Source: Halomonas salipaludis (lineage in GTDB: Bacteria; Pseudomonadota; Gammaproteobacteria; Pseudomonadales; Halomonadaceae). Taken from it: a stretch of DNA of 64,000 nt. Every line of letters begins with the position of its first letter. The first letter of the stretch is position 1. The stretch covers positions 22,524 through 86,523 of the forward strand of contig NZ_NSKB01000012.1 in NCBI RefSeq assembly GCF_002286975.1. The letters run 5' to 3'. The notes below the pieces were generated by a model. The model saw nothing but the letters and a program-made list of their open reading frames with translations. It did no database searches and had not been told where the DNA came from. The position numbers and the translations under genes were made by a program. Positions 33,290-44,184 of the stretch are shown here, piece by piece.

Positions 33290-33459
33290 CCGAGCCATGA
33301 CAAAGCGTCACGCCCTGTAGTCAATCGCTTACATCCTTTGCAGGGTGACGCCTCCTCATGCTTAGGCGTATATTTGCCTGCTTATATAATGAGGTGCCCA
33401 ACACCCGACGAACAACAAGAAACACCAACGCAGCGGAACGCCTAGCCAGGAGGCCAACC

Positions 33460-34374
33460 ATGCCTGCCGATGACAGCGTGCTGCCCGAGACCATGGAGAG
33501 TCTCGCGCAGCTCAAGGCCATGACCGAACGTATCCCCGGCATGATCTTCCAACTCTTTCGCAGCACCAGCGGCCAGCTGCGCTTTCCCTATCTGGCCGGC
33601 AATGCCACCCTGGTCCGCGCAGGCGAGCGCCGCCTGCTCGCCGACGATGCCAGCTATGCTTTCGCACGTATTCACGCCGAGGATTTTCCACGCCTGATGG
33701 CCGCCATCGAGCGCTCGGCCAAGTCGCTGACGCCGCTGGCCAATCAGTTTCGGCTCTATCAGCCGTGTGGCGAGGTTCGCTGGATCTCGGTGCGTGCCCA
33801 GCCCGAATGGCGCGGAGACGGCACGCTATGGCATGGCCTGATGATGGATGTCAGCGAGCAGGTCGCCCATGAGGCGCATCTGCGCGAACTCTCCGATACC
33901 GACGAACTCACCGGCCTGGCCAATCGCCGCAAGTTGATGTGCCGCCTGGACGAGGAGATCTCCTCCGCACGCCGCCACGGCTCGCCGCTATCGCTGATGC
34001 TGATCGATCTCGACCACTTCAAGGGTATCAACGACACTTGGGGACACTTGCAGGGCGACCAGGTGCTCGAGGACCTGGCAAGACTCTGTGAGCAGCAGCT
34101 GCGTGAGGAGGACATCCCCGCGCGGCTGGGCGGTGAAGAGTTCGCCGTGATCCTGCCGCTGACGCCGCTATCGCACTGCCTACCGCTTGCCGAGCGCCTG
34201 CGCGAGGCGATTGCCCTCCACGACTTCGGGTTTGGTGCGGGGCGCGTCACGGCCAGCATCGGCATCGCCGAGTACCGTCTCGGCGAGCCCCGCGAGGCCT
34301 TTATCGAACGCGCCGACCGCCGGCTCTATCGCGCCAAGCACCAGGGCCGCAATCAGGTACTGAGCCAGCCCTGA
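33460..34374 (+). CDS. PAS-GGDEF diguanylate cyclase
   Basis: Makes cyclic di-GMP from GTP. The 304-residue protein has a PAS-like sensor (residues about 25-135, RLYQPCGEVRWISVRAQPEW) and a full GGDEF domain with the active-site motif GGEEF. The upstream REED five residues before it matches the RxxD inhibitory site, so product feedback is expected. No membrane helices, so it is cytoplasmic. The ATG at 33460 has AGGAGG upstream. Convergent with the globin gene, 9 bp apart. Confidence 0.93.
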   Translation: MPADDSVLPETMESLAQLKAMTERIPGMIFQLFRSTSGQLRFPYLAGNATLVRAGERRLLADDASYAFARIHAEDFPRLMAAIERSAKSLTPLANQFRLYQPCGEVRWISVRAQPEWRGDGTLWHGLMMDVSEQVAHEAHLRELSDTDELTGLANRRKLMCRLDEEISSARRHGSPLSLMLIDLDHFKGINDTWGHLQGDQVLEDLARLCEQQLREEDIPARLGGEEFAVILPLTPLSHCLPLAERLREAIALHDFGFGAGRVTASIGIAEYRLGEPREAFIERADRRLYRAKHQGRNQVLSQP

Positions 34375-34383
34375 CCCACCCTT

Positions 34384-34788
34384 TCAGCGCCGCCGACACA
34401 TTTCCGCAGGGTGACGCAGCTGAGCCAGCAGGTAGGCCTTGAGCTCGGCATCCACGCCCTGCTCGTCGAGCGCCGTTGCCATGCACAAAAGCCAAGCGTC
34501 GCGCTCCTCGGGGCCGATATCCAAGTGACGATGCGCCCCCGGGATGCTGATCGGCCCGAAACGCTCGCGATAGCGCTTGGGACCGCCCATCCAGCCGATC
34601 AGAAAGGTGGTCAGCTTGTCCCGCGCCTCGCCGAGATCGGCGGGATGCATGGCGCGAATCCGCTGCGCCTCGGGCAGCCGCTGCATCGCCGCATAGAAGC
34701 GCCCGACGAGTGCGGCCACCGCCGCCTCGCCGCCCAGCGCCTGCAGGGTACTGTCGCCAACGCCGTAGATTCGTGCCGTATCGCTCAT
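34384..34788 (-). CDS. Group II truncated haemoglobin
   Basis: A 134-residue 2-over-2 globin of the GlbO class. Opening LGGEAAVAALVGRFYAAM is the B-helix motif; FLIGWMGGPKRYRERFGP is the CD/E region; the proximal haem ligand is probably His88 (AHRHLDIG), with the group II-specific Trp99 (RDAWLLCM). Such globins bind oxygen or detoxify NO and peroxide. The start lies 1 bp after the stop of the SMC gene, with AGGAG inside the SMC coding end, so it is translationally coupled as the fourth gene of that operon. That is where JetD or MksG would be expected in a nuclease-bearing system. Confidence 0.92.
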   Translation of the reverse strand: MSDTARIYGVGDSTLQALGGEAAVAALVGRFYAAMQRLPEAQRIRAMHPADLGEARDKLTTFLIGWMGGPKRYRERFGPISIPGAHRHLDIGPEERDAWLLCMATALDEQGVDAELKAYLLAQLRHPAEMCRRR

Positions 34789-34789
34789 C

Positions 34790-37700
34790 CTACGTCTCCT
34801 CGCTGACCGGCTCGCTGACATGGATGCCGAACAGGCTGGCTTCGCCGGCGCTGCGACCGAGCTGCTCGGGTGCGACGCTGCGGCCGTCGCGGACCATGAC
34901 ATGACCGCCCTGGCCCTGAACACCGCCGATCACGCTGCCCACCAGGTAGGTGGGGAAGATTGCCGGGTCGTTCTCGTAGTTGGGATTGTGGATCAGGCCG
35001 ATCATCTGGAAACGCCCGCGGGTGTTGCGCAGCGACTCCAGCGAGTCCTGAATCAGCCGCCGGTGGGAGAGCTTGGAGAACAGGCCGTCGAGCAGGATCA
35101 CGCTCTCGCGGCTGTTGCGCGCCCGCCGCTTGTGGTGGCCGGGCAGTTCGCGCAGCTCGCGCTCGATGGCGAACTCCGAGAGCTTGACCAGCCACATCAG
35201 CGATACCGCCTCGCGCTGGCCCTCGGACATGTCCTCGTTGAGCGAGAACAGCCGACCGTGGGGACGGATGGCGTCGTGCTTGAGGCGAATCGCTACGTCG
35301 TGGAACAACCCGCGGTAGATGCGCCGGCGAATCTGGCGCAGCAGGTCGTCGTCGCGGCGCCGTGCATCGCCGTCGGGCATGCCACCGTCGCGCTCGGCGC
35401 GGCGCTTCTGCGCCAACTGGTGCTCGTCGATGTCCGCCAGCAGGGTGGTGATCAGCTCGCGCAGCGGCTCGCCGTCGATCAGCGACGCCTTGACCTCGAA
35501 ATAGGCGCCGCCCTCGCCGTGGCTGCGCGCCACGCGCTTGAGGATATCCAGGTTGCCGGCGGCGTCGGCGATGATCGAGCTCAACCGCTCGACCAGGGTG
35601 CCTTCGATCTGCTCGCGTGAGGCATGCAGCCGCTCGACACGCTGGCGATGCTCGCCGAGCTGAGCGTCGAGCTGGTCGTGCAGCGCCGCCAGATCGGCCA
35701 AGGCCGCTGCACTGACGCCCTTCAATGCCGCCAGCCGCGCGCGCTCGGTATCGCTGAAGGCACGGCTCTGGGCAGCCGCCTCCAGCGCCTCGGCCAGGCG
35801 CCGTTCGAGGGCACGCACCGCCTTGTCCTGGCGCTCGCGGTCGCGCGCCCGTTCACCCAGGTTGAGATCATCAAGCGCATCGATCAGGGTCTGCTGGCAG
35901 GCCTCCAGCGCCGCCGGATCGGGCAGCGCCGCCTCACTGCCTGCCAGCCGCCACCAGTCGTCCAGCGCTGCCTGACGCGGCGCCTGGTCGGGGTCGTCGA
36001 GGGGCCAGGCGCACTGCGGCTCGGCCTCTGCCAGCCGCTGCCCCCAGCCGCTGGGCAGCTCGCGGACCACCGCCAGCCACGCCAGGGCCAGATGGTCGAC
36101 CCACTCCATGGCCCGGCGCTGGACGCCGAGCCGCTCGCTGACGCTGTCACGCTCCTCGCGCTTGGCCTTGAGCTGCTCACGGCACTCGCCGCGCTCGCGC
36201 TTGACCCGAGCGATCTCGCGCTCGAGTTTCTGCCCGCCGCCACCGGCGTCGCGCACGTCGAGGTAGGCGCGGATCCGCGTGAACGAGAAGTCGGCGCGGC
36301 GGTTGGCCGTGGCCAACTGCGTCTCGAGCTGCTCCTGCACCTCGGCGGCGGTCTCGATAAAGGCCACGCCACCCTCGGCCTCGAACTCGGCCAGGGCGCG
36401 CAGCCGGTCGCGTTCGCCATCGGCGAATAGCCCGCGCTGCTCGGCGTCGAGTTCGCTGAGACGGCGCTCGAGGGTCTCGCGCTGGGCCTCGGCGTCATGC
36501 AGTCGCTCGCCGACCTCGGCCTGGCGTTCGGCCAGGGCATCGAGGCGCGCCTCCAGCGCTGCGAGCCGCTCCGCGCCACCGGCGTTGGCAAACTGCTCCG
36601 CCGCCAGCCAGGTCTCGCCATGGCGCTCCAGCGCCTGCTGCGCATCGACCAGTTGCGGGCGTTGCTCGGCCAGTTCGCTCTCGGCCGCCAGTGCCGCCTC
36701 GGCGGCGGCCTCCAGGGCCAGCTCACCACCGGCTTCCAGGTAGCGCTGGTAGTCGTCGATGCAGCTCAGCGCGGCGTCGCTGAGGCGCGGCGCCAGCGCC
36801 GCCTGGCGCTCGGCCAACGCGGCCTGCTCGGCACCCAGCGCCTCCAGCGCATCGACCACTCCGGCCTCATCGGCCTGCCTGGCGCGTACCGCCAGGGCGT
36901 AGGCCTCGCCGTGGGGATCGAGACGCCGGCATTCGACCTCGAGTGCCACCTGGCGCTCGCGGTCGGCGGCCAGGCGCCGCTCGGTGGCCTGACGCAGCTC
37001 GTCCAGGTAGCGCGGGTCGAGGGCCGCCTTGACCGCCAGCGTCTCGACGCCCTGTACCGCACCAAGCGGCGAGCGGCCGGCCTCCAGCCGCGTCGTCAGG
37101 GCCCCGGCTTCGAGTACCGGCAGCGCCAGGCCGGCGTCGACCAACAGGCCGGCGACGTCTTCGGCATTGGCCTCGCCCTCGACCACCGGCGCGAACAGCA
37201 CCCCGGCGGCCTGGGCCAGCCACTCGCGGCGCCGGGCCTCGGGCCAATGCGCGGCGTTGAGCACTTCGTGCAGCGGCTGCCAGGCGATCTCCTCGCGCTG
37301 CAGCAGGCGCTCGGCCTCGGCTTCCACCGCACGGCGTTCGAGTGGGTCGCCGCTCAGGCTCTCCAGATAGCGCTGGCGCTCGGCAATGGCGCTATCCAGC
37401 GACTCCGCCTCGCTGAGCAGTCGCGGGTAGCGGCGCTGGGCATCGCGCAGCCAGTCCGCCGGGGCCAGTTCGCTGCGTTCGGCGAAGCTCAGCCGCGCCT
37501 GATGCAGCTCGCGCAGCTCGGCCTCGCGCTGGGCGAGGCGGTGCTCGGTATCCGCCAGTTCACGCTCGCGCTCGCGCAGGCGGCTACGCAGGTGCACCGG
37601 TTCGTCATCGCCGTGCAGCTCGGCGTAGCGCCGCGCCGCCTCGGCCAGCGGTGCCAGCCGCGCCTGCTCGCGGCGGGCATCCTGCTGGCGCTGCTCGGCG

Positions 37701-39673
37701 TCGCGGCAGCGGGTCTCGAGTTCGGCCAGCTGGGTCTTGCGCCGCGACCAGAAACCGCGCGGCTCCTCCTCCGGCCAGCCCTCGACGAAGGCCTGCCACG
37801 GCCCTTGACCCTGGCTGAGCAGGCCCTGCTCGCCGGCCAGGCGCTGCTGCTCGTCGCGCAGGGTGGCCGCCTCTTCGCGCAGCTCGCGGCACTGCTCGAG
37901 CAGCGGTTGGCGCTGCTGCTCGGCGGCCTCGCGGGCCTCCTCGATCAGCGCCTCGCGCTCGTGCTTCTCGGCCAGGCGCTCGGCGGGCACTTCATGGGGG
38001 TGACGCTGGCGGAACTCGGCGTGCCAGGCGGCGACCTGCTTGAGCTCGCCGCTGCGACCCAGATGCGCGTTGAGGGCGCGGCGCGCCTCATCGGCCTCGC
38101 GGCGGCTGGCCTCGGCGGTGTGTTCCGGCGCCTCCAGCTCGGCCTCGCTGAACAGGCCGTCGGCGAGCGCCTGGGTATAGAAACTCTGGTTGTCGACGAA
38201 CTCGCGCTGCTGCCCCTCGAGGCGCTCACGGTCGTGCTCGAGGCCCTCGAGCTGCTGCTCGAGGCCGTCGAGGTCATGGCCTAGCTCATCGAGGTAGGTG
38301 CGGTCGGCGATCACCTCTTCGCGGAAGCGGTTGCCGTCCAGCGCTTCGAAGGCATCGGCCGCGCTGTCCAGCGCCTCCAGCGCACGGTGGCGCGCGCTGT
38401 CGTCGTTGAAACTCAGCGTCTCTGCCAGCCAGTCGCGGGCGGCGGCAAAGGTCACGTGGCCCAGGTCGCGGGCACTCAGCCACTCGGCATCGGGCAAGTG
38501 AATCAGCCGGCGGTGGGCATCGACCCGCGCGCCGCGCTCGGAGAGCGCCTGGCGGACGCTGCGCTCGCTGGCGCCGCTGAGCCGTGCCAGTAGCCAGGTC
38601 GAGACCCGCGGCCGGCCGGTGTCGCCCACCGCCCAGGCCAAGCCCGCCAGGGGCGCGGCATCGACGTCGGCGTCGGACGGCTGCCGCGGCAGCCCCGGCA
38701 GGCCGGCCAGGGCCTGGCCGCCAAGCAGGCGCTCGAGGCTGGCCAGCCCCTCGTCGAGGCGCTCGCGGGCTTCGCGGGCCTCGAGCAGCGCCGCGCCGTC
38801 GGCACTCAGCGTCGCCAGGTTGGCCACCTTGTCGGCAGTGCGACGCTGGTCGCTCTCGGCTTCGTCGAGGCGATGGCGCAGCTCGGTGATATGGGTGCCG
38901 GAGTTGAGGATCACCTCCTCGATCAGCTCCTCGCTCTCGTCGGTCTCGCCGCGGGTCGCGCCGGAGAGGATCTCCGGCGCCAGCACCTCGAAGAAGAACG
39001 CCTGGTCGGCCTTCTCGCCGCCGCGCGGCTTGATGGCGTTGAAGATCTGGCTCTTGTCGGCGCCGCCCTCCTTCTGGAAGGCGGCCAGCTGCGCCAGCTC
39101 ACGGCGCGACACATGGGCACCCACCGCGTCCAGCCACTCCTCGCGGTTGTGGGTCAGGCGCACGTTGCGGCTTGCCATGGCGGTCTTGATATCGCTGTTG
39201 GCGTACAGCGCCAGCATGCCGTCGGCGGTCAGGTGGTGGACCGGGATGTCCTCGAGCCGCCCGGGGTAGTGGTAGAACGACAGGCCACTGCCGTCGCTGT
39301 AGCCATAGAAGCCGAACACGAAGGTCTCGCCGGCGACCTCTTCGCCGGCGGCGGCGAGCATGTCCTCCTGGCGCTCGCCGCCGCTGCGAGAGCGAAACTC
39401 GACGCGCAGATGGCTCCAGCTGCGCCCCTGGCCGGCGACGGTCGATGGCGAGCACTTGCGTCGCGTGCGCGAGATCAGCGTGCGGTCCCGCGACAGCAGA
39501 CCGATCAGCGCCTCGGCGAGGGTGGTCTTGCCGAAGCCGTTCTCCATGCTGATGGCGCTGGACTGGCCGCGCAGGTCGAGCAGCAGGTGACGCATCTTGG
39601 CGTCCCACGGCGAGGCGATGTCGCCGTGCTTGTTGAGCAGGTTGGCGACTTCGATACGGTTGATCACGCTCAT
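34790..39673 (-). CDS. Giant SMC-like ATPase (MukB/MksB-type)
   Basis: A 1627-residue SMC-like ATPase, closer in size to MukB (about 1490) than MksB or JetC (about 900-1100). The N-terminal head has MENGFGKTT (43-51), a Walker A in which the first glycine is Met. About 1,100 residues of Glu/Arg/Ala-rich coiled coil follow, with a central non-coiled stretch near 740-850 likely to be the hinge. The C-terminal head has the signature SEGQ (1483-1486) and Walker B VILLDGLF, where Gly1530 replaces the usual catalytic Glu. The start overlaps the preceding gene by 4 bp (ATGA). It should clamp DNA with the two upstream proteins. Whether it organises the chromosome or excludes plasmids is open. Confidence 0.82.
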   Translation of the reverse strand: MSVINRIEVANLLNKHGDIASPWDAKMRHLLLDLRGQSSAISMENGFGKTTLAEALIGLLSRDRTLISRTRRKCSPSTVAGQGRSWSHLRVEFRSRSGGERQEDMLAAAGEEVAGETFVFGFYGYSDGSGLSFYHYPGRLEDIPVHHLTADGMLALYANSDIKTAMASRNVRLTHNREEWLDAVGAHVSRRELAQLAAFQKEGGADKSQIFNAIKPRGGEKADQAFFFEVLAPEILSGATRGETDESEELIEEVILNSGTHITELRHRLDEAESDQRRTADKVANLATLSADGAALLEAREARERLDEGLASLERLLGGQALAGLPGLPRQPSDADVDAAPLAGLAWAVGDTGRPRVSTWLLARLSGASERSVRQALSERGARVDAHRRLIHLPDAEWLSARDLGHVTFAAARDWLAETLSFNDDSARHRALEALDSAADAFEALDGNRFREEVIADRTYLDELGHDLDGLEQQLEGLEHDRERLEGQQREFVDNQSFYTQALADGLFSEAELEAPEHTAEASRREADEARRALNAHLGRSGELKQVAAWHAEFRQRHPHEVPAERLAEKHEREALIEEAREAAEQQRQPLLEQCRELREEAATLRDEQQRLAGEQGLLSQGQGPWQAFVEGWPEEEPRGFWSRRKTQLAELETRCRDAEQRQQDARREQARLAPLAEAARRYAELHGDDEPVHLRSRLRERERELADTEHRLAQREAELRELHQARLSFAERSELAPADWLRDAQRRYPRLLSEAESLDSAIAERQRYLESLSGDPLERRAVEAEAERLLQREEIAWQPLHEVLNAAHWPEARRREWLAQAAGVLFAPVVEGEANAEDVAGLLVDAGLALPVLEAGALTTRLEAGRSPLGAVQGVETLAVKAALDPRYLDELRQATERRLAADRERQVALEVECRRLDPHGEAYALAVRARQADEAGVVDALEALGAEQAALAERQAALAPRLSDAALSCIDDYQRYLEAGGELALEAAAEAALAAESELAEQRPQLVDAQQALERHGETWLAAEQFANAGGAERLAALEARLDALAERQAEVGERLHDAEAQRETLERRLSELDAEQRGLFADGERDRLRALAEFEAEGGVAFIETAAEVQEQLETQLATANRRADFSFTRIRAYLDVRDAGGGGQKLEREIARVKRERGECREQLKAKREERDSVSERLGVQRRAMEWVDHLALAWLAVVRELPSGWGQRLAEAEPQCAWPLDDPDQAPRQAALDDWWRLAGSEAALPDPAALEACQQTLIDALDDLNLGERARDRERQDKAVRALERRLAEALEAAAQSRAFSDTERARLAALKGVSAAALADLAALHDQLDAQLGEHRQRVERLHASREQIEGTLVERLSSIIADAAGNLDILKRVARSHGEGGAYFEVKASLIDGEPLRELITTLLADIDEHQLAQKRRAERDGGMPDGDARRRDDDLLRQIRRRIYRGLFHDVAIRLKHDAIRPHGRLFSLNEDMSEGQREAVSLMWLVKLSEFAIERELRELPGHHKRRARNSRESVILLDGLFSKLSHRRLIQDSLESLRNTRGRFQMIGLIHNPNYENDPAIFPTYLVGSVIGGVQGQGGHVMVRDGRSVAPEQLGRSAGEASLFGIHVSEPVSEET

Positions 39674-40494
39674 GCGTCGGCCTCCTGGTGGGCGGCTTGT
39701 GGCATTTCCGCTGAGGCCTCGTCGGCCAGGCGCCCCTCGGCCAGCGACTGCAGGTGGCCGAGCTGGTGCAGGCCGACCTGCTCGCTCTCCAGGGCGCCGA
39801 GCAACGTCTGCTGCCAGATATCGCCGCCGGCCTCGTCGCCCTCCTCGACCAGCGTTTCCCGCGGCGACTCGAGCAGCCCGGCGCGAGCCTGCAGGTCGAT
39901 GAAGGCGCGCACCCGGCGGTTGAGGTCCTCGCCGCGTTCATCGAGCAGCGCGCGGCTGGCCTCCGGCGCCGCCTCACCCAGGCTGCGCAGCGCCTCGAGC
40001 TGCTCGCGCAGCAGGTCTAGCAGCTCGTTGCTGGCGAAGGTCGCCTCCTGGTAGCGGCTGACATCGGACAGCGCACGGTTGTAGCGGGTATAGAGCAGGG
40101 TATGCATCAACAGCCACAGCTGCAGGTACCACTGGGCCAGCTCGGCGCGGCTCTCCTGGCGCAGCTTGAGGGCCTCGAACACCGGCTCGCGGGTGTACAG
40201 CGGCGGCTGCTCGAGATCCGGGTCGGGCAACAGCGCGTAGTAGCGCGAGCCCGGCGCAATGCCCGGATAATCGCCGGACTCGAAGGCCTTGAGACGCAGC
40301 CCCTGGCCAGCCAGGAAGTCGCGCAGCGCCTCGCGCTCGAGATCGCTGGCATCATCGATCAGCGCGCAGACATCGCGCTCGGAGAGCTGCCCCTCGCGGG
40401 CGGCACGCCGCTTACGGCCGCTGCCCGGGGCGCGTTCGGCACTGCGGTAGCGCAGCAGGTAGGCGACCACTTCGCCCATTTCACTCATGTTCAT
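39670..40494 (-). CDS. MukE/MksE/JetB-like accessory subunit of the SMC complex
   Basis: A 274-residue soluble protein. Size and position between a kleisin-like gene and an SMC gene fit MukE/MksE (KITE) subunits, which dimerise and bind the kleisin. It has a basic patch (SGRKRRAARE, 25-34), a region reading like a winged-helix subunit (LSERDVCALIDDASDLEREALRDFL), helices with LWLLMHTLLYTRYNRALSDV and an acidic tail. It overlaps both neighbours by 4 bp, so the three are made in fixed ratio. I do not recognise a close named family member; the role rests on context. Confidence 0.68.
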   Translation of the reverse strand: MNMSEMGEVVAYLLRYRSAERAPGSGRKRRAAREGQLSERDVCALIDDASDLEREALRDFLAGQGLRLKAFESGDYPGIAPGSRYYALLPDPDLEQPPLYTREPVFEALKLRQESRAELAQWYLQLWLLMHTLLYTRYNRALSDVSRYQEATFASNELLDLLREQLEALRSLGEAAPEASRALLDERGEDLNRRVRAFIDLQARAGLLESPRETLVEEGDEAGGDIWQQTLLGALESEQVGLHQLGHLQSLAEGRLADEASAEMPQAAHQEADA

Positions 40495-41882
40495 TGCGGA
40501 TCATCCTGATCGGAGAGGCGCAGTGACGGGGTCACTGCGCCGCGGACACATCGGCCGTCAGCGAGGGTCAGCTCGAACGGCGTGGCGTCGATGCCCACCG
40601 CCAGGCGGTCATCGAGCAGTTGGGTATCGACGAAGGTGTTGAGCAGCTGGGCCAGGCAGTCGCCCTCTTCGAAGCGGTGCCAGCCCTCGGCCAGCGCCGC
40701 CGGCAGCGACAGCGGCTCGCGCTGGATGCGCTGGCGCAGCGCCGGGCCACGGGCCTCGAGGAAGCGCGCCAGCAGCGGGTCCTCGGGGGCCGCGTCGTGC
40801 TGCTCGTCGAACACCAGGGCGGCGTGGCTGGTCTCGGCACGGCGCGACTCCAGCAGCGGAATCAGCGGCGCCATGCGCGGCACCGCGACCTGCACGTGCA
40901 GCGGCATCAGCCGCGCCACCAGCGCCTGCTGTAGCGCCGCCGGCGGGGCGCTATTGAGCAGTCCGCGGGCCAGGTCGGCGAAGTCGACCACGCCCATCGA
41001 CTGGATGCGCCCCTCGGCGATATCGGCGAGCAGCTCGGCGAGGCGCCGCGAGAGGTTCTCGATGGCGGTCAGCACCCGGCCGATGGCGCTGGACAGCATG
41101 CGCAGGTCCCACTCCTCGCCGCTGGCCGCCTGCTCGGCCTCACGCCACTCGGCGAAGCGTTCCATCAGCCGCGGTGCGGTGAGCTGGGCGCGGGCGTCAA
41201 GCAGGGTACGCTGAATGCTCGACAGCGCGTTGTGATAGTGGCGCTGGTTGTCGAGCAGTGCCGCCAGCTTGCCTTCGCGGGTGGGATTCTCGCGCACCCG
41301 GCGCAGCTCCTGGGTCAGCCCGCGGATCGCCAGCAGGATCTGGTTGGTGATATCCGGCACCCGGGCGAAGTCGCCGCGGGCCAGCGCCGCCAGCACCTTG
41401 GCGGCGTCGTATTCGGAGTACAGCAGGTCCTCGACCTGGCTGGCCAGGGTCACCGCCTGGCGGCCGCTGGCGGTCAGCCGCACCTGGCCGGTCTGGCCCT
41501 GCTTTTCGATCAGCGCGGTGCGCTTGGTGCTGCGCGAGGCGCGCGCGGCGCTATCCTCGACGCCGAGTTGGCGAAAGTGCAGCTCGCTGGGAGTGGCCAG
41601 CAGGTTGATGACGAAGCTGAGGTCGTCGTGGGGCAGGTCCGGGTAGGTTTCGCGCAGCTGCGCCAGGCAGCGGCTCTGCGAGACGAAGGCGCTGTTGGTG
41701 GCAAAGTCGACATCGAGCAGGTAGTCGAGCAGCAGGCAGCCGAGGTCCAGCCAGTAGCCGTCGCGCAGCCCGCGGCGGCTCTCCTGGCTGACCTGCACGA
41801 ACGGCGAGCCGGGCTCGTGGCCGCTGTCGTGCAGGTCGATTAGCCGCGTGGTGGCGACGAGTAGCTTGCTCCAGGCGGTCAT
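40491..41882 (-). CDS. Kleisin-like MukF/MksF/JetA-type subunit
   Basis: A 463-residue soluble protein, first gene of the SMC operon. MukF is about 440 and JetA/MksF about 470-500 residues. The N-terminal ~120 residues look like a winged-helix domain (LRETYPDLPHDDLSFVINLLATPSELHF, then TGQVRLTASGRQAVTLASQ). A long helical middle follows (about 150-320), then a C-terminal part with FELTLADGRCVRGAV that could be the head-binding winged helix. Start ATG at 41882, 322 bp from the divergent recQ. Subunit identity is inferred from order, size and coupling. Confidence 0.68.
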   Translation of the reverse strand: MTAWSKLLVATTRLIDLHDSGHEPGSPFVQVSQESRRGLRDGYWLDLGCLLLDYLLDVDFATNSAFVSQSRCLAQLRETYPDLPHDDLSFVINLLATPSELHFRQLGVEDSAARASRSTKRTALIEKQGQTGQVRLTASGRQAVTLASQVEDLLYSEYDAAKVLAALARGDFARVPDITNQILLAIRGLTQELRRVRENPTREGKLAALLDNQRHYHNALSSIQRTLLDARAQLTAPRLMERFAEWREAEQAASGEEWDLRMLSSAIGRVLTAIENLSRRLAELLADIAEGRIQSMGVVDFADLARGLLNSAPPAALQQALVARLMPLHVQVAVPRMAPLIPLLESRRAETSHAALVFDEQHDAAPEDPLLARFLEARGPALRQRIQREPLSLPAALAEGWHRFEEGDCLAQLLNTFVDTQLLDDRLAVGIDATPFELTLADGRCVRGAVTPSLRLSDQDDPQ

Positions 41883-42001
41883 GGGTCTTCCCTGAGGGCA
41901 AAGCCACCATTATGCCAAGGAGTGCCCCTCCAGGTCATGGACGATTATGGAAAACCCGAACGGTAGAGACCAACCCGGGGCTGATCCGGCGGCAAGCCTA
42001 C

Positions 42002-42204: not shown

Positions 42205-44184
42205 ATGCCCCGCGATTCACTCGACACCACGCTCAAGCAGGTCTTCGGCTACGACGACTTTCGTCCCGGCCAGCGCCAGGTGGTCGAGGCGCTGGTGGCA
42301 GGCCGCTCGGCGGCGGCGATCTTTCCCACCGGCTCCGGCAAGTCGCTGTGCTACCAGCTGCCGGCGCTGCACCTGCCGCACCTGACGCTGGTGGTGTCGC
42401 CGCTGCTGGCGCTGATGCAGGACCAGCTCGACTTCCTGGCCCGCCACGGCATCGCCGCCGCCAGCATCGACTCGCGCCAGAGCCGCGAGGAGGCCAGCGC
42501 GGTGATGGACGGCGTGCGCCGCGGCGAGATTCGCGTGCTGATGATCTCGGTGGAGCGCCTCAAGAATGAGCGCTTCCGCGGCTTCCTGCGCCAGGTGCCG
42601 GTGTCGCTGCTGGTGGTCGACGAGGCCCACTGCCTCTCGGAATGGGGCCACAACTTCCGCCCCGACTACCTCAAGCTGCCCGACTACCAGCGCGAGTTCG
42701 GCATTCCCCAGGCGCTGCTGCTCACCGCCACCGCCACGCCGCGGGTGATCGAGGACATGCGCGCCAGCTTCGCCATCGACGCCGAGGACGTCACCCTGAC
42801 CGGCTTCTATCGCCCCAATCTCAACCTGCTGGTCGAGCCGGTGGCCGCCGAGCAGCGCGCCCGCGCCCTGCGCGACTGGCTGCGTCCGCGCCTGGAAGGC
42901 CCCTCGCCGCAGCCGAGCATCGTCTACGTCACCCTGCAGAAACGTGCCGAGCAGCTCGCCGCCTACCTCAGCAAGGCCGGCATCGACGCCCGCGCCTACC
43001 ACGCGGGCATGCAGAGTGAGGCCCGCGACGCCCTGCAACAGGCGTTCATGGCCGGCGAGGTCAACTGCATCGTTGCCACCATCGCTTTCGGCATGGGCAT
43101 CGACAAGGCCAATATCCGCAACGTGGTGCACGTCGACCTGCCCAAGTCGATCGAGAACTACAGCCAGGAGATCGGTCGCGCCGGGCGCGACGGCCAGCCC
43201 TCCGACTGCCTGATGCTGGGCGGTCGCGACGCCCTGGCGGCACTCGAGAACTTCGTTTACGGCGACACCCCGGAGCGCGACGGCATCCTGCGGGTGCTGG
43301 AGGTGATTCGCGAGGCGGCGCCCCACGGCCAGTGGGAGCTCACCCTGAATGCCCTCTCGCAGCACAGCAATATCCGCCCGCTGCCGCTCAAGACGCTGCT
43401 GGTGCAGCTCGAGCTGCGCGGGGTGATTGCGCCACGCTACGCCTACTTCGCCGAGTACCGCTTTCAGTACCGGCTCGAGCCCGAGGCGCTGATCGAGCGC
43501 TTCAGCGGCGAGCGGCGCGACTTCGTCGCCGCCATCGTCGAGGCGGCACCGCGCGCCAAGACCTGGTGCAGCCTGGACCTCGACGCGCTCAACCGACTGG
43601 GCGCCGAGCGCGGCCTCGATGTGGCCCGGCCGCGGGTGATCCGGGCGCTGGAGTACTTCAACGACCAGGGCTGGATCGCGCTGGAGAGCAAGCAGATGAC
43701 CGAGGTCTATGCGATCACCCAGCCGGATCTCGACGTGCAGGCCCTGGCCGACGCGCTGTTCGACTACTTCCGCGACAAGGAGCGCGCCGAGATCGCCAGG
43801 CTCGAGGCGATGCTGGCGCTGTTCGAATCCGACCAGTGCCTCAGCCGCCGGCTCGCCGAGTACTTTGGCGATGCCCACGCGCCGCAGCAATGCGGCCACT
43901 GCTCGGCCTGTCGCGGCCAGGTCGCACGGTTGCCCGGCGGCGAGGCGCCAGCACCGCTGGACGCCCAGCAGGTGGCGACGCTGTGCCAGCCGCTGCTCAA
44001 CCGCATCGCCGAGAGCGCCGATGCACCGGCACCCAGCGTCGATCTGCTGACCCGCTTCCTGACCGGCCTCACCACACCGCTGCTGACCAAACTCAAGGCA
44101 CGCCAGCTCGATGGCTTCGCCGCCCTGGAGGCGTGGCCCTACGCCGAGGTACGCGAGGCGCTTGGCCAGCAGTTCGATGGCTGA
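42205..44184 (+). CDS. recQ: RecQ-family ATP-dependent DNA helicase
   Basis: 3'-5' helicase for recombination and fork repair. The 659-residue protein has motif 0 (GYDDFRPGQRQVVEAL), Walker A TGSGKS (42-47), the DEAH box and RecQ aromatic loop (VVDEAHCLSEWGHNFRPDY), TATATPRV and the motif V-VI block HVDLPKSIENYSQEIGRAGRDGQPSDC. A zinc site follows (CLSRRLAEYFGDAHAPQQCG with HCSAC). The C-terminal region after the zinc site is short and I do not see a typical HRDC domain. Divergent from the SMC operon and 6 bp from the convergent membrane-protein gene. Confidence 0.93.
   Translation: MPRDSLDTTLKQVFGYDDFRPGQRQVVEALVAGRSAAAIFPTGSGKSLCYQLPALHLPHLTLVVSPLLALMQDQLDFLARHGIAAASIDSRQSREEASAVMDGVRRGEIRVLMISVERLKNERFRGFLRQVPVSLLVVDEAHCLSEWGHNFRPDYLKLPDYQREFGIPQALLLTATATPRVIEDMRASFAIDAEDVTLTGFYRPNLNLLVEPVAAEQRARALRDWLRPRLEGPSPQPSIVYVTLQKRAEQLAAYLSKAGIDARAYHAGMQSEARDALQQAFMAGEVNCIVATIAFGMGIDKANIRNVVHVDLPKSIENYSQEIGRAGRDGQPSDCLMLGGRDALAALENFVYGDTPERDGILRVLEVIREAAPHGQWELTLNALSQHSNIRPLPLKTLLVQLELRGVIAPRYAYFAEYRFQYRLEPEALIERFSGERRDFVAAIVEAAPRAKTWCSLDLDALNRLGAERGLDVARPRVIRALEYFNDQGWIALESKQMTEVYAITQPDLDVQALADALFDYFRDKERAEIARLEAMLALFESDQCLSRRLAEYFGDAHAPQQCGHCSACRGQVARLPGGEAPAPLDAQQVATLCQPLLNRIAESADAPAPSVDLLTRFLTGLTTPLLTKLKARQLDGFAALEAWPYAEVREALGQQFDG

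Follow-up and report, generated by a model that had tools for sequence, protein, structure and literature searches.

A nuclease-free kleisin-KITE-SMC operon ending in a truncated haemoglobin gene in Halomonas salipaludis: a candidate second chromosomal condensin

The described systems closest to the locus reported here are the anti-plasmid system Wadjet (JetABCD, or MksBEFG), whose operon includes the gene for the nuclease JetD, and the Wadjet-group complexes MukBEF of Escherichia coli and MksBEF of Pseudomonas aeruginosa, which have none. Nuclease-free members of the group are thus already known: in the consulted portion of PMC7617805, MukBEF and several other Wadjet-group members are described as lacking MksG/JetD, and the consulted portion of PMC7485682 presents P. 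aeruginosa MksBEF as a second condensin beside SMC-ScpAB (SMC, structural maintenance of chromosomes). We analysed a stretch of 64,000 nucleotides from Halomonas salipaludis (the window), which carries at 34384-41882 four minus-strand genes for a kleisin-like protein, a KITE-like protein (KITE, kleisin-interacting tandem winged-helix element), an SMC ATPase and a truncated globin. We call the window-type kleisin-KITE-SMC set core A. A previous sequence-only reading had described a Muk/Mks/Wadjet-like SMC operon that lacks a nuclease and whose fourth gene encodes a truncated globin. Our analysis supports this description, and the sizes of the genes and their junctions of -4, -4 and +1 bp were confirmed by the coordinates (Table 1).

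We propose, with a probability of roughly 55%, that core A forms a nuclease-free, Wadjet-group-like (JetABC/MukBEF-like) SMC complex that serves as an accessory second chromosomal condensin, and that the globin is a passenger of the operon and not a subunit of the complex. Such a complex would bind ATP, close on DNA, and load on and fold or hold the chromosome in the manner of MukBEF and P. aeruginosa MksBEF. In relatives that carry jetD the same core would restrict plasmids, and repeated loss of jetD would leave the folding machine only. The globin would do its own oxygen or nitric oxide (NO) chemistry while sharing the SMC transcript.

The locus resembles Wadjet in its kleisin-KITE-SMC gene order, in the 4-bp ATGA overlaps at the kleisin/KITE and KITE/SMC junctions, and in the jetD-like next gene found in relatives. 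Structure prediction gave a kleisin fold closest to JetA/MukF and a KITE fold closest to JetB/MukE, which bears out the earlier assignment of the first two genes as kleisin- and KITE-like, and the SMC has conserved Walker A, signature and Walker B motifs. It differs from Wadjet in the absence of jetD from the window operon, in an SMC of 1627 amino acids (aa) with DG in its Walker B motif, in the additional globin gene, and in being overlooked by PADLOC except for a weak match to LmuB (E-value 0.0073). With MukBEF and MksBEF it shares the lack of MksG/JetD and the MukF/MukE-like predicted folds; like P. aeruginosa MksBEF, as presented in the consulted portion of PMC7485682, core A occurs beside Smc-ScpAB. 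It differs from both in that neither their Pfam and NCBIfam models nor their PDB chains gave a sequence match, and in the variable presence of jetD among its close kin.

No model in Pfam, PADLOC or NCBIfam recognised the kleisin, KITE or SMC of the window, and besides LmuB the weak library matches of the SMC were to the NCBIfam TrlF-type ATPase (E-value 0.0011; 17.7 bits, the cut-off being 350) and to Pfam XhlA (0.054) and ABC_tran (0.087). Searches of the core against the PDB with single sequences and with profiles returned coiled-coil or chance matches only. The SMC head was also compared with the JetC of a canonical Wadjet and with the SMC of core B, a second set consisting of a DUF3584 SMC, an MksE-like KITE and a putative kleisin. 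Profile-profile probabilities were below 1% for both; in Smith-Waterman comparisons the JetC score was reached by 24 of 300 shuffles and the core B score by 278 of 300. An alignment of core B with JetC by MAFFT put Walker B out of place. Because the profile and Smith-Waterman comparisons showed no kinship, core A is treated here as alike in fold and motif and not as sequence kin.

Core A was found in Halomonadaceae, Oceanospirillum, Terasakiispira and Endozoicomonas, and in none of 21 other genomes of the same order; scoring in the kleisin search was limited to the 7997 candidates with the most words in common, and this list of taxa is no proof of absence elsewhere. Searching with SMC residues 1440-1600 yielded 86 homologous proteins, and those with a named source belong to the same bacterial groups. 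Identity to the window SMC over the whole protein went down to 42% among 12 aligned members. Within the family, 77 of 250 genomes carry core A, which rules out an operon special to the window strain.

Some relatives have an open reading frame (ORF) of about 370 codons that overlaps the SMC stop or adjoins it. All four of the fourth genes tested scored above the Pfam JetD_C cut-off of 22 (22.2 to 34.6 bits, one exceeding it by 0.2 bits), and the Toprim motifs IEN and GDxD were present in 24/24 intact jetD-like copies; a PDB search with the JetD profile returned nothing relevant. Among 75 core-A loci, jetD was intact in 24 (an ORF of more than 330 aa with an alignment of more than 250 aa), a remnant in 2 and absent from 49. 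These 75 comprise 72 of the 74 named loci (L095 and L107 were dropped, having no SMC gene) together with the window, L018 and L025, and most were covered to about 4 kb past the SMC stop. A whole-genome search placed JetD_C beside the core-A SMC in 24/77 genomes; counts of JetD_C, and of DUF7281 below, are lower bounds for diverged genes. With remnants counted as absent, both jetD and the globin were present in 8 loci, all in the order kleisin-KITE-SMC-jetD-globin, jetD only in 16, the globin only in 8 and neither in 43. The sequence-only reading had considered a haem sensor in the nuclease's place. This could not be upheld: in relatives the jetD-like gene stands fourth and the globin follows it as fifth, which rules out the globin as a replacement of the nuclease, and the globin abuts the SMC gene in the window because jetD is missing there. 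Two jetD remnants (L043, L056), and one globin remnant that lies directly behind the SMC gene (L065), show decay in progress at this locus.

The distribution is likely that of an old fourth gene with frequent losses and some gain or exchange. Loss has probably been commoner than gain because jetD is present in the Endozoicomonas outgroup (2 of the 3 named loci that reach the SMC end) and because the JetD tree tracks the SMC tree, with a Pearson r of 0.95 and a Spearman coefficient of 0.68 over 24 rows, an r of 0.74 over the 22 rows without Endozoicomonas, and agreement of the nearest rows in 14/22. Parsimony on the SMC tree (FastTree) gave at least 14 changes for jetD and at least 4 for the globin. 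Very close relatives differ in jetD: Chromohalobacter marismortui is without it and C. israelensis with it, two strains of Salinicola salarius differ, and so do the window and Halomonas socia. For the Salinicola strains gain is as possible as loss. The jetD-bearing H. socia nests within jetD-less kin sharing one junction type, and a single regain by recombination explains this as well as three losses would.

Judged from substitution rates, the core is kept under purifying selection without jetD. In the pairs that both lack jetD (6 of the 8 pairs compared), all three core genes had a ratio of nonsynonymous to synonymous substitution rates (dN/dS) of 0.01-0.12, and a full-length SMC ORF was found in 74 of the 75 loci. 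In L086 (Salinicola tamaricis) the SMC ORF has only 1173 aa, compared with about 1630 in relatives. All 250 family genomes also have ScpA, and core A is therefore a second SMC system. That it acts on the chromosome is likely, given its retention without a nuclease and its either/or pattern with core B.

Core B differs from the window core in having its SMC gene first, an SMC of about 1240 aa, DE in Walker B and no detectable sequence kinship; the two are alike in using the same slot beside recQ, in that core B mostly has a nuclease-like gene, and in that the same globin can follow. It consists of SMC2 (DUF3584, 1.5e-219), the KITE and a 419-aa third protein, with 4-bp overlaps (G005, G064). 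The third protein matched no Pfam family above cut-off, and its gene order and size suggest a kleisin. Across the 250 family genomes core A was present in 77, core B in 117, both in 0 and neither in 56 (Fisher 3.7e-28, without correction for kinship). Core B was counted from matches above 400 bits, and nine genomes with weaker matches were left out, including the core-A carriers G169 and G215. Five genera hold both kinds; their 105 genomes divide into 45 with A, 41 with B, none with both and 19 with neither, and the chance product of 4.9e-15 assumes independent genomes, which they are not. One genus, g2, has exactly one core in each of its 10 genomes. There, G005 and G064 hold a transporter-like gene, core B and the globin between recQ and a rarA-like gene, and the same stretch in G113 (L125) holds the window-type core and the globin; L132-L135 have core B in the slot without the globin, one of them with a nuclease-like gene. 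In Chromohalobacter both cores were found in the recQ slot, and the globin can follow either.

The fourth gene of core B encodes a Toprim-like protein of about 290-310 aa with a DUF7281 domain (2.4e-11 in L120), on which JetD_C scored below its cut-off in L120. It follows the putative kleisin gene in 11 of the 18 fetched core-B loci, with L120 having the order SMC2-KITE2-kleisin2-nuclease-globin. The DUF7281 genes seen were L120 14950-15825 and those in L128-L132, L136, L138-L140 and L142. A DUF7281 match was present in 101/117 core-B genomes, a count in which G246 lies below the family cut-off and which does not extend to per-gene adjacency; the match is on another contig than the SMC in G252 and G106 and about 9 kb away in G268. 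This frequency rules out core B as a nuclease-free counterpart throughout, and the sequences suggest that the gene is likely a second class of JetD-like nuclease. Each core was thus found with and without a nuclease gene and with and without the globin. A and B look like interchangeable parts doing one job beside Smc-ScpAB. This shared role may lie in defence, in chromosome care or in both, defence being considered because core B mostly keeps its nuclease-like gene. Six genomes (G062, G158, G169, G215, G219 and G235) have a DUF3584-type SMC that is farther removed from core B, at 26-28% identity, and in G169 and G215 it shares the genome with core A; a strong DUF7281 match lies about 5-6 kb from it, and it is perhaps a third system.

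The fourth gene of the window operon matched Pfam Bac_globin (1.5e-28) and, as best PDB match, the 2-on-2 haemoglobin 2xyk (4.5e-25). It shares with the truncated haemoglobins the ERDAW columns and a His column, which we take to be the haem ligand, and it presumably belongs to group II. From the group II proteins such as 2xyk, with which it has family and motifs in common, it differs in being the last gene of an SMC operon. A distant second truncated globin (33% identity) is present in the window genome (G000:C1:64520-64843). The sequence-only reading knew of no described SMC-globin operon, and our search of open-licence PMC articles, joining globin with SMC and Wadjet terms, found none; in the same literature we found neither the core-A family nor its Walker-B glycine nor a slot used by two cores. 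The adjacency extends beyond this strain: the globin follows the core-A SMC in 16 of the 77 core-A genomes, directly in 8 and after a jetD-like gene in 8, and among the 75 loci it is present in 16 and a remnant in one more. All 21 close orthologues in the 250 genomes (matches below 1e-60, at least 73% identity; 23 further of the 44 matching genomes were left out) occupy this slot: core A precedes 16 of them and core B 3, and the other 2 have neither core there. The latter two stand alone in the recQ slot, at L119 5001-5396 and L109 8762-9163; the genome of L109 (G012) has core B on another contig.

The globin might be more than a passenger, namely a functional partner, a haem protein that reports oxygen, NO or redox state to the SMC complex and has stayed at the 3' end of two different SMC operons because it needs to be expressed together with them. 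In favour of this, 19 of the 21 close orthologues (16 A, 3 B) immediately follow either an SMC core or the nuclease gene of one, and at all 8 core-A loci that have a globin but no jetD the globin match starts 1-16 bp after the SMC stop; at the other loci the globin overlaps the preceding gene in L108 and L118, with 172 bases between in L120. Purifying selection acts on the globin (dN/dS of 0.05-0.13 for 5 pairs), and in Chromohalobacter the core-(jetD)-globin unit is intact though the right flank is rarA-like instead of ggdef. In genus g19 the core-A globins are separate from the lone globin of L119 and the core-B globin of L120; co-inheritance with the core would produce this pattern, which weighs against the passenger part of our proposal. 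Against a partnership, the globin is missing beside the SMC in 61/77 core-A genomes, it occupies the slot without core A or B in L109 and L119, and homologues at 55-59% identity occur elsewhere in other genomes. In the globin tree, in which only 2 of the 18 inner branches are starred, core-A and core-B globins of g2 are intermingled (98% support), and G012, whose globin stands alone, branches in g9 with L051 (G035 contig; 93%); globins in these two genera group by genus whatever the core, or with none, and are thus tied to the slot and not to the SMC, and 4 of the 6 core-B loci of g2 have no globin (L132-L135). The tree suggests that a resident globin in g2 stayed in place while, most likely, the SMC core upstream of it was exchanged. 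Selection for co-expression of globin and SMC is possible, and a signalling partnership seems to us unlikely, though it retains some weight. The earlier idea had combined a nuclease-free condensin, which fits our results, with a link to oxygen or NO; this link is weakened by globins that stand behind the other core or alone, and by the absence of the globin beside most core-A SMC genes.

The complex could also still serve defence, either by silencing or trapping plasmids without cutting them or by borrowing the JetD of another Wadjet. This agrees with the existence of relatives with jetD and with the nuclease-like gene that core B, in the same slot, mostly carries. For the borrowing, the genome-wide search for a JetD/MksG homologue that the sequence-only reading had called for found none in the window operon but located a canonical type I Wadjet on a different contig of the window genome (L127 11575-18215, G000:C31), where PADLOC identified JetA1, JetC1 and JetD1 and about 0.6 kb between JetA and JetC would accommodate an unscored JetB. 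Strong JetD_C matches (E < 1e-30), taken as canonical Wadjet, occur in 18 genomes and coexist with core A in 4 and with core B in 9; G017 was excluded for a stop in its copy, and the copy read was that of the window genome. Three genomes of the same genus as the window (G001-G003) have no JetD_C anywhere, and the core there cannot therefore borrow a recognisable JetD. A stable chromosomal site under strong purifying selection without the nuclease is, moreover, unlike a patchy defence island, and we regard a defence role for the nuclease-free complex as decidedly improbable. That the operon is a decaying Wadjet remnant with no present function would agree with the missing nuclease, the jetD and globin remnants and the short SMC ORF of L086, and is set aside as highly improbable on the low dN/dS of the nuclease-free pairs, with 74/75 SMC ORFs at full length.

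The ATPase motifs of the core-A SMC are strongly conserved, with one departure from the usual pattern. The Walker A pattern ENGFGKT[TS] occurs in 83/86 homologues, the other three having no match in their first 90 residues. Walker B reads hhhhDG, with DG in place of DE in 86/86 homologues, and a glycine (Gly1530) stands at the expected position of the catalytic glutamate. The corresponding motifs are VVIDEAFGRGS in the canonical JetC of the same genome and PIDEIGTL in core B. We read the glycine as occupying the catalytic position because the spacing D-x-x-F-x-K/R-x-S is common to core-A SMC and JetC; this is a placement by motif, which profile and pairwise alignments of the SMC with JetC and core B did not confirm. 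An invariant glutamate is present inside the signature motif. In other SMCs a change from E to Q at Walker B blocks hydrolysis. Given the glycine at this position, ATP hydrolysis by core A would be slow or would use another residue, and the complex would perhaps be an ATP-gated DNA clamp more than a fast motor.

The coordinates of the operon and its flanks are collected in Table 1. A single base (34789) separates the SMC stop from the globin ATG; the mechanical globin ORF extends upstream to a GTG (179 aa), and its length is counted here from the ATG. A consensus scan of 34300-35000, covering the SMC end and the globin start, found no promoter-like site, and for the site before the kleisin gene 0.1 matches were expected in shuffles. 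The flanking recQ-like and GGDEF genes have the look of ordinary genes of the chromosome. Of the 75 core-A loci, 64 lie beside one or more of nine marker genes. The names recQ, tyrR, phhA, aat, cfa, ggdef, fdhA, lytE and rarA were all given from reading of the proteins and not from family searches.

Table 1. Features of the core-A operon and its flanks in the window.
Feature	Position	Strand	Remarks
Kleisin-like subunit, 463 aa	40491..41882	-	JetA/MukF-like predicted fold
KITE-like subunit, 274 aa	39670..40494	-	JetB/MukE-like predicted fold; 4-bp overlap on each side
SMC ATPase, 1627 aa	34790..39673	-	Family without Pfam, PADLOC or NCBIfam model
Truncated haemoglobin (2-on-2 globin), 134 aa from ATG	34384..34788	-	Pfam and PDB match
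Walker A ENGFGKTT, residues 44-51	39521..39544	-	Kept in 17/17 aligned
ABC signature MSEGQR, residues 1482-1487	35213..35230	-	MSEGQRE in 86/86
Walker B and D-loop VILLDGLFSKLS, residues 1525-1536	35066..35101	-	DGLF in 86/86; placed by motif, not alignment
GAGGAG, Shine-Dalgarno-like site for the globin	34796..34801	-	Within the last SMC codons, 7 bases ahead of the globin ATG; sequence reading
Promoter-like site ATGACC-18-CATAAT	41909..41938	-	26 bases before the kleisin ATG; consensus match only
recQ-like gene, left flank of slot, divergent	42205..44184	+	Name from reading of the protein
GGDEF-protein gene, right flank, convergent with the globin	33358..34374	+	Name from reading of the protein

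The removable nuclease and the exchangeable cores are the stronger finding, and the globin, though eye-catching, is probably the less important one. A bolder view would take the two unrelated cores as interchangeable cartridges in one slot with removable nucleases, the haem protein as a coupled gas or redox control and the clamp-type SMC as a new mode of SMC action; we consider this a long shot. If the complex is a nuclease-free second condensin, the step that has been proposed to lead from plasmid defence to care of the chromosome becomes testable. The nuclease varies among very close relatives while the core is kept, which makes function with and without the nuclease directly comparable, and the either/or cores, partly in one slot, are natural replacement experiments. 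The loss of the Walker-B glutamate across the family, if confirmed, would test which step of SMC action needs ATP hydrolysis.

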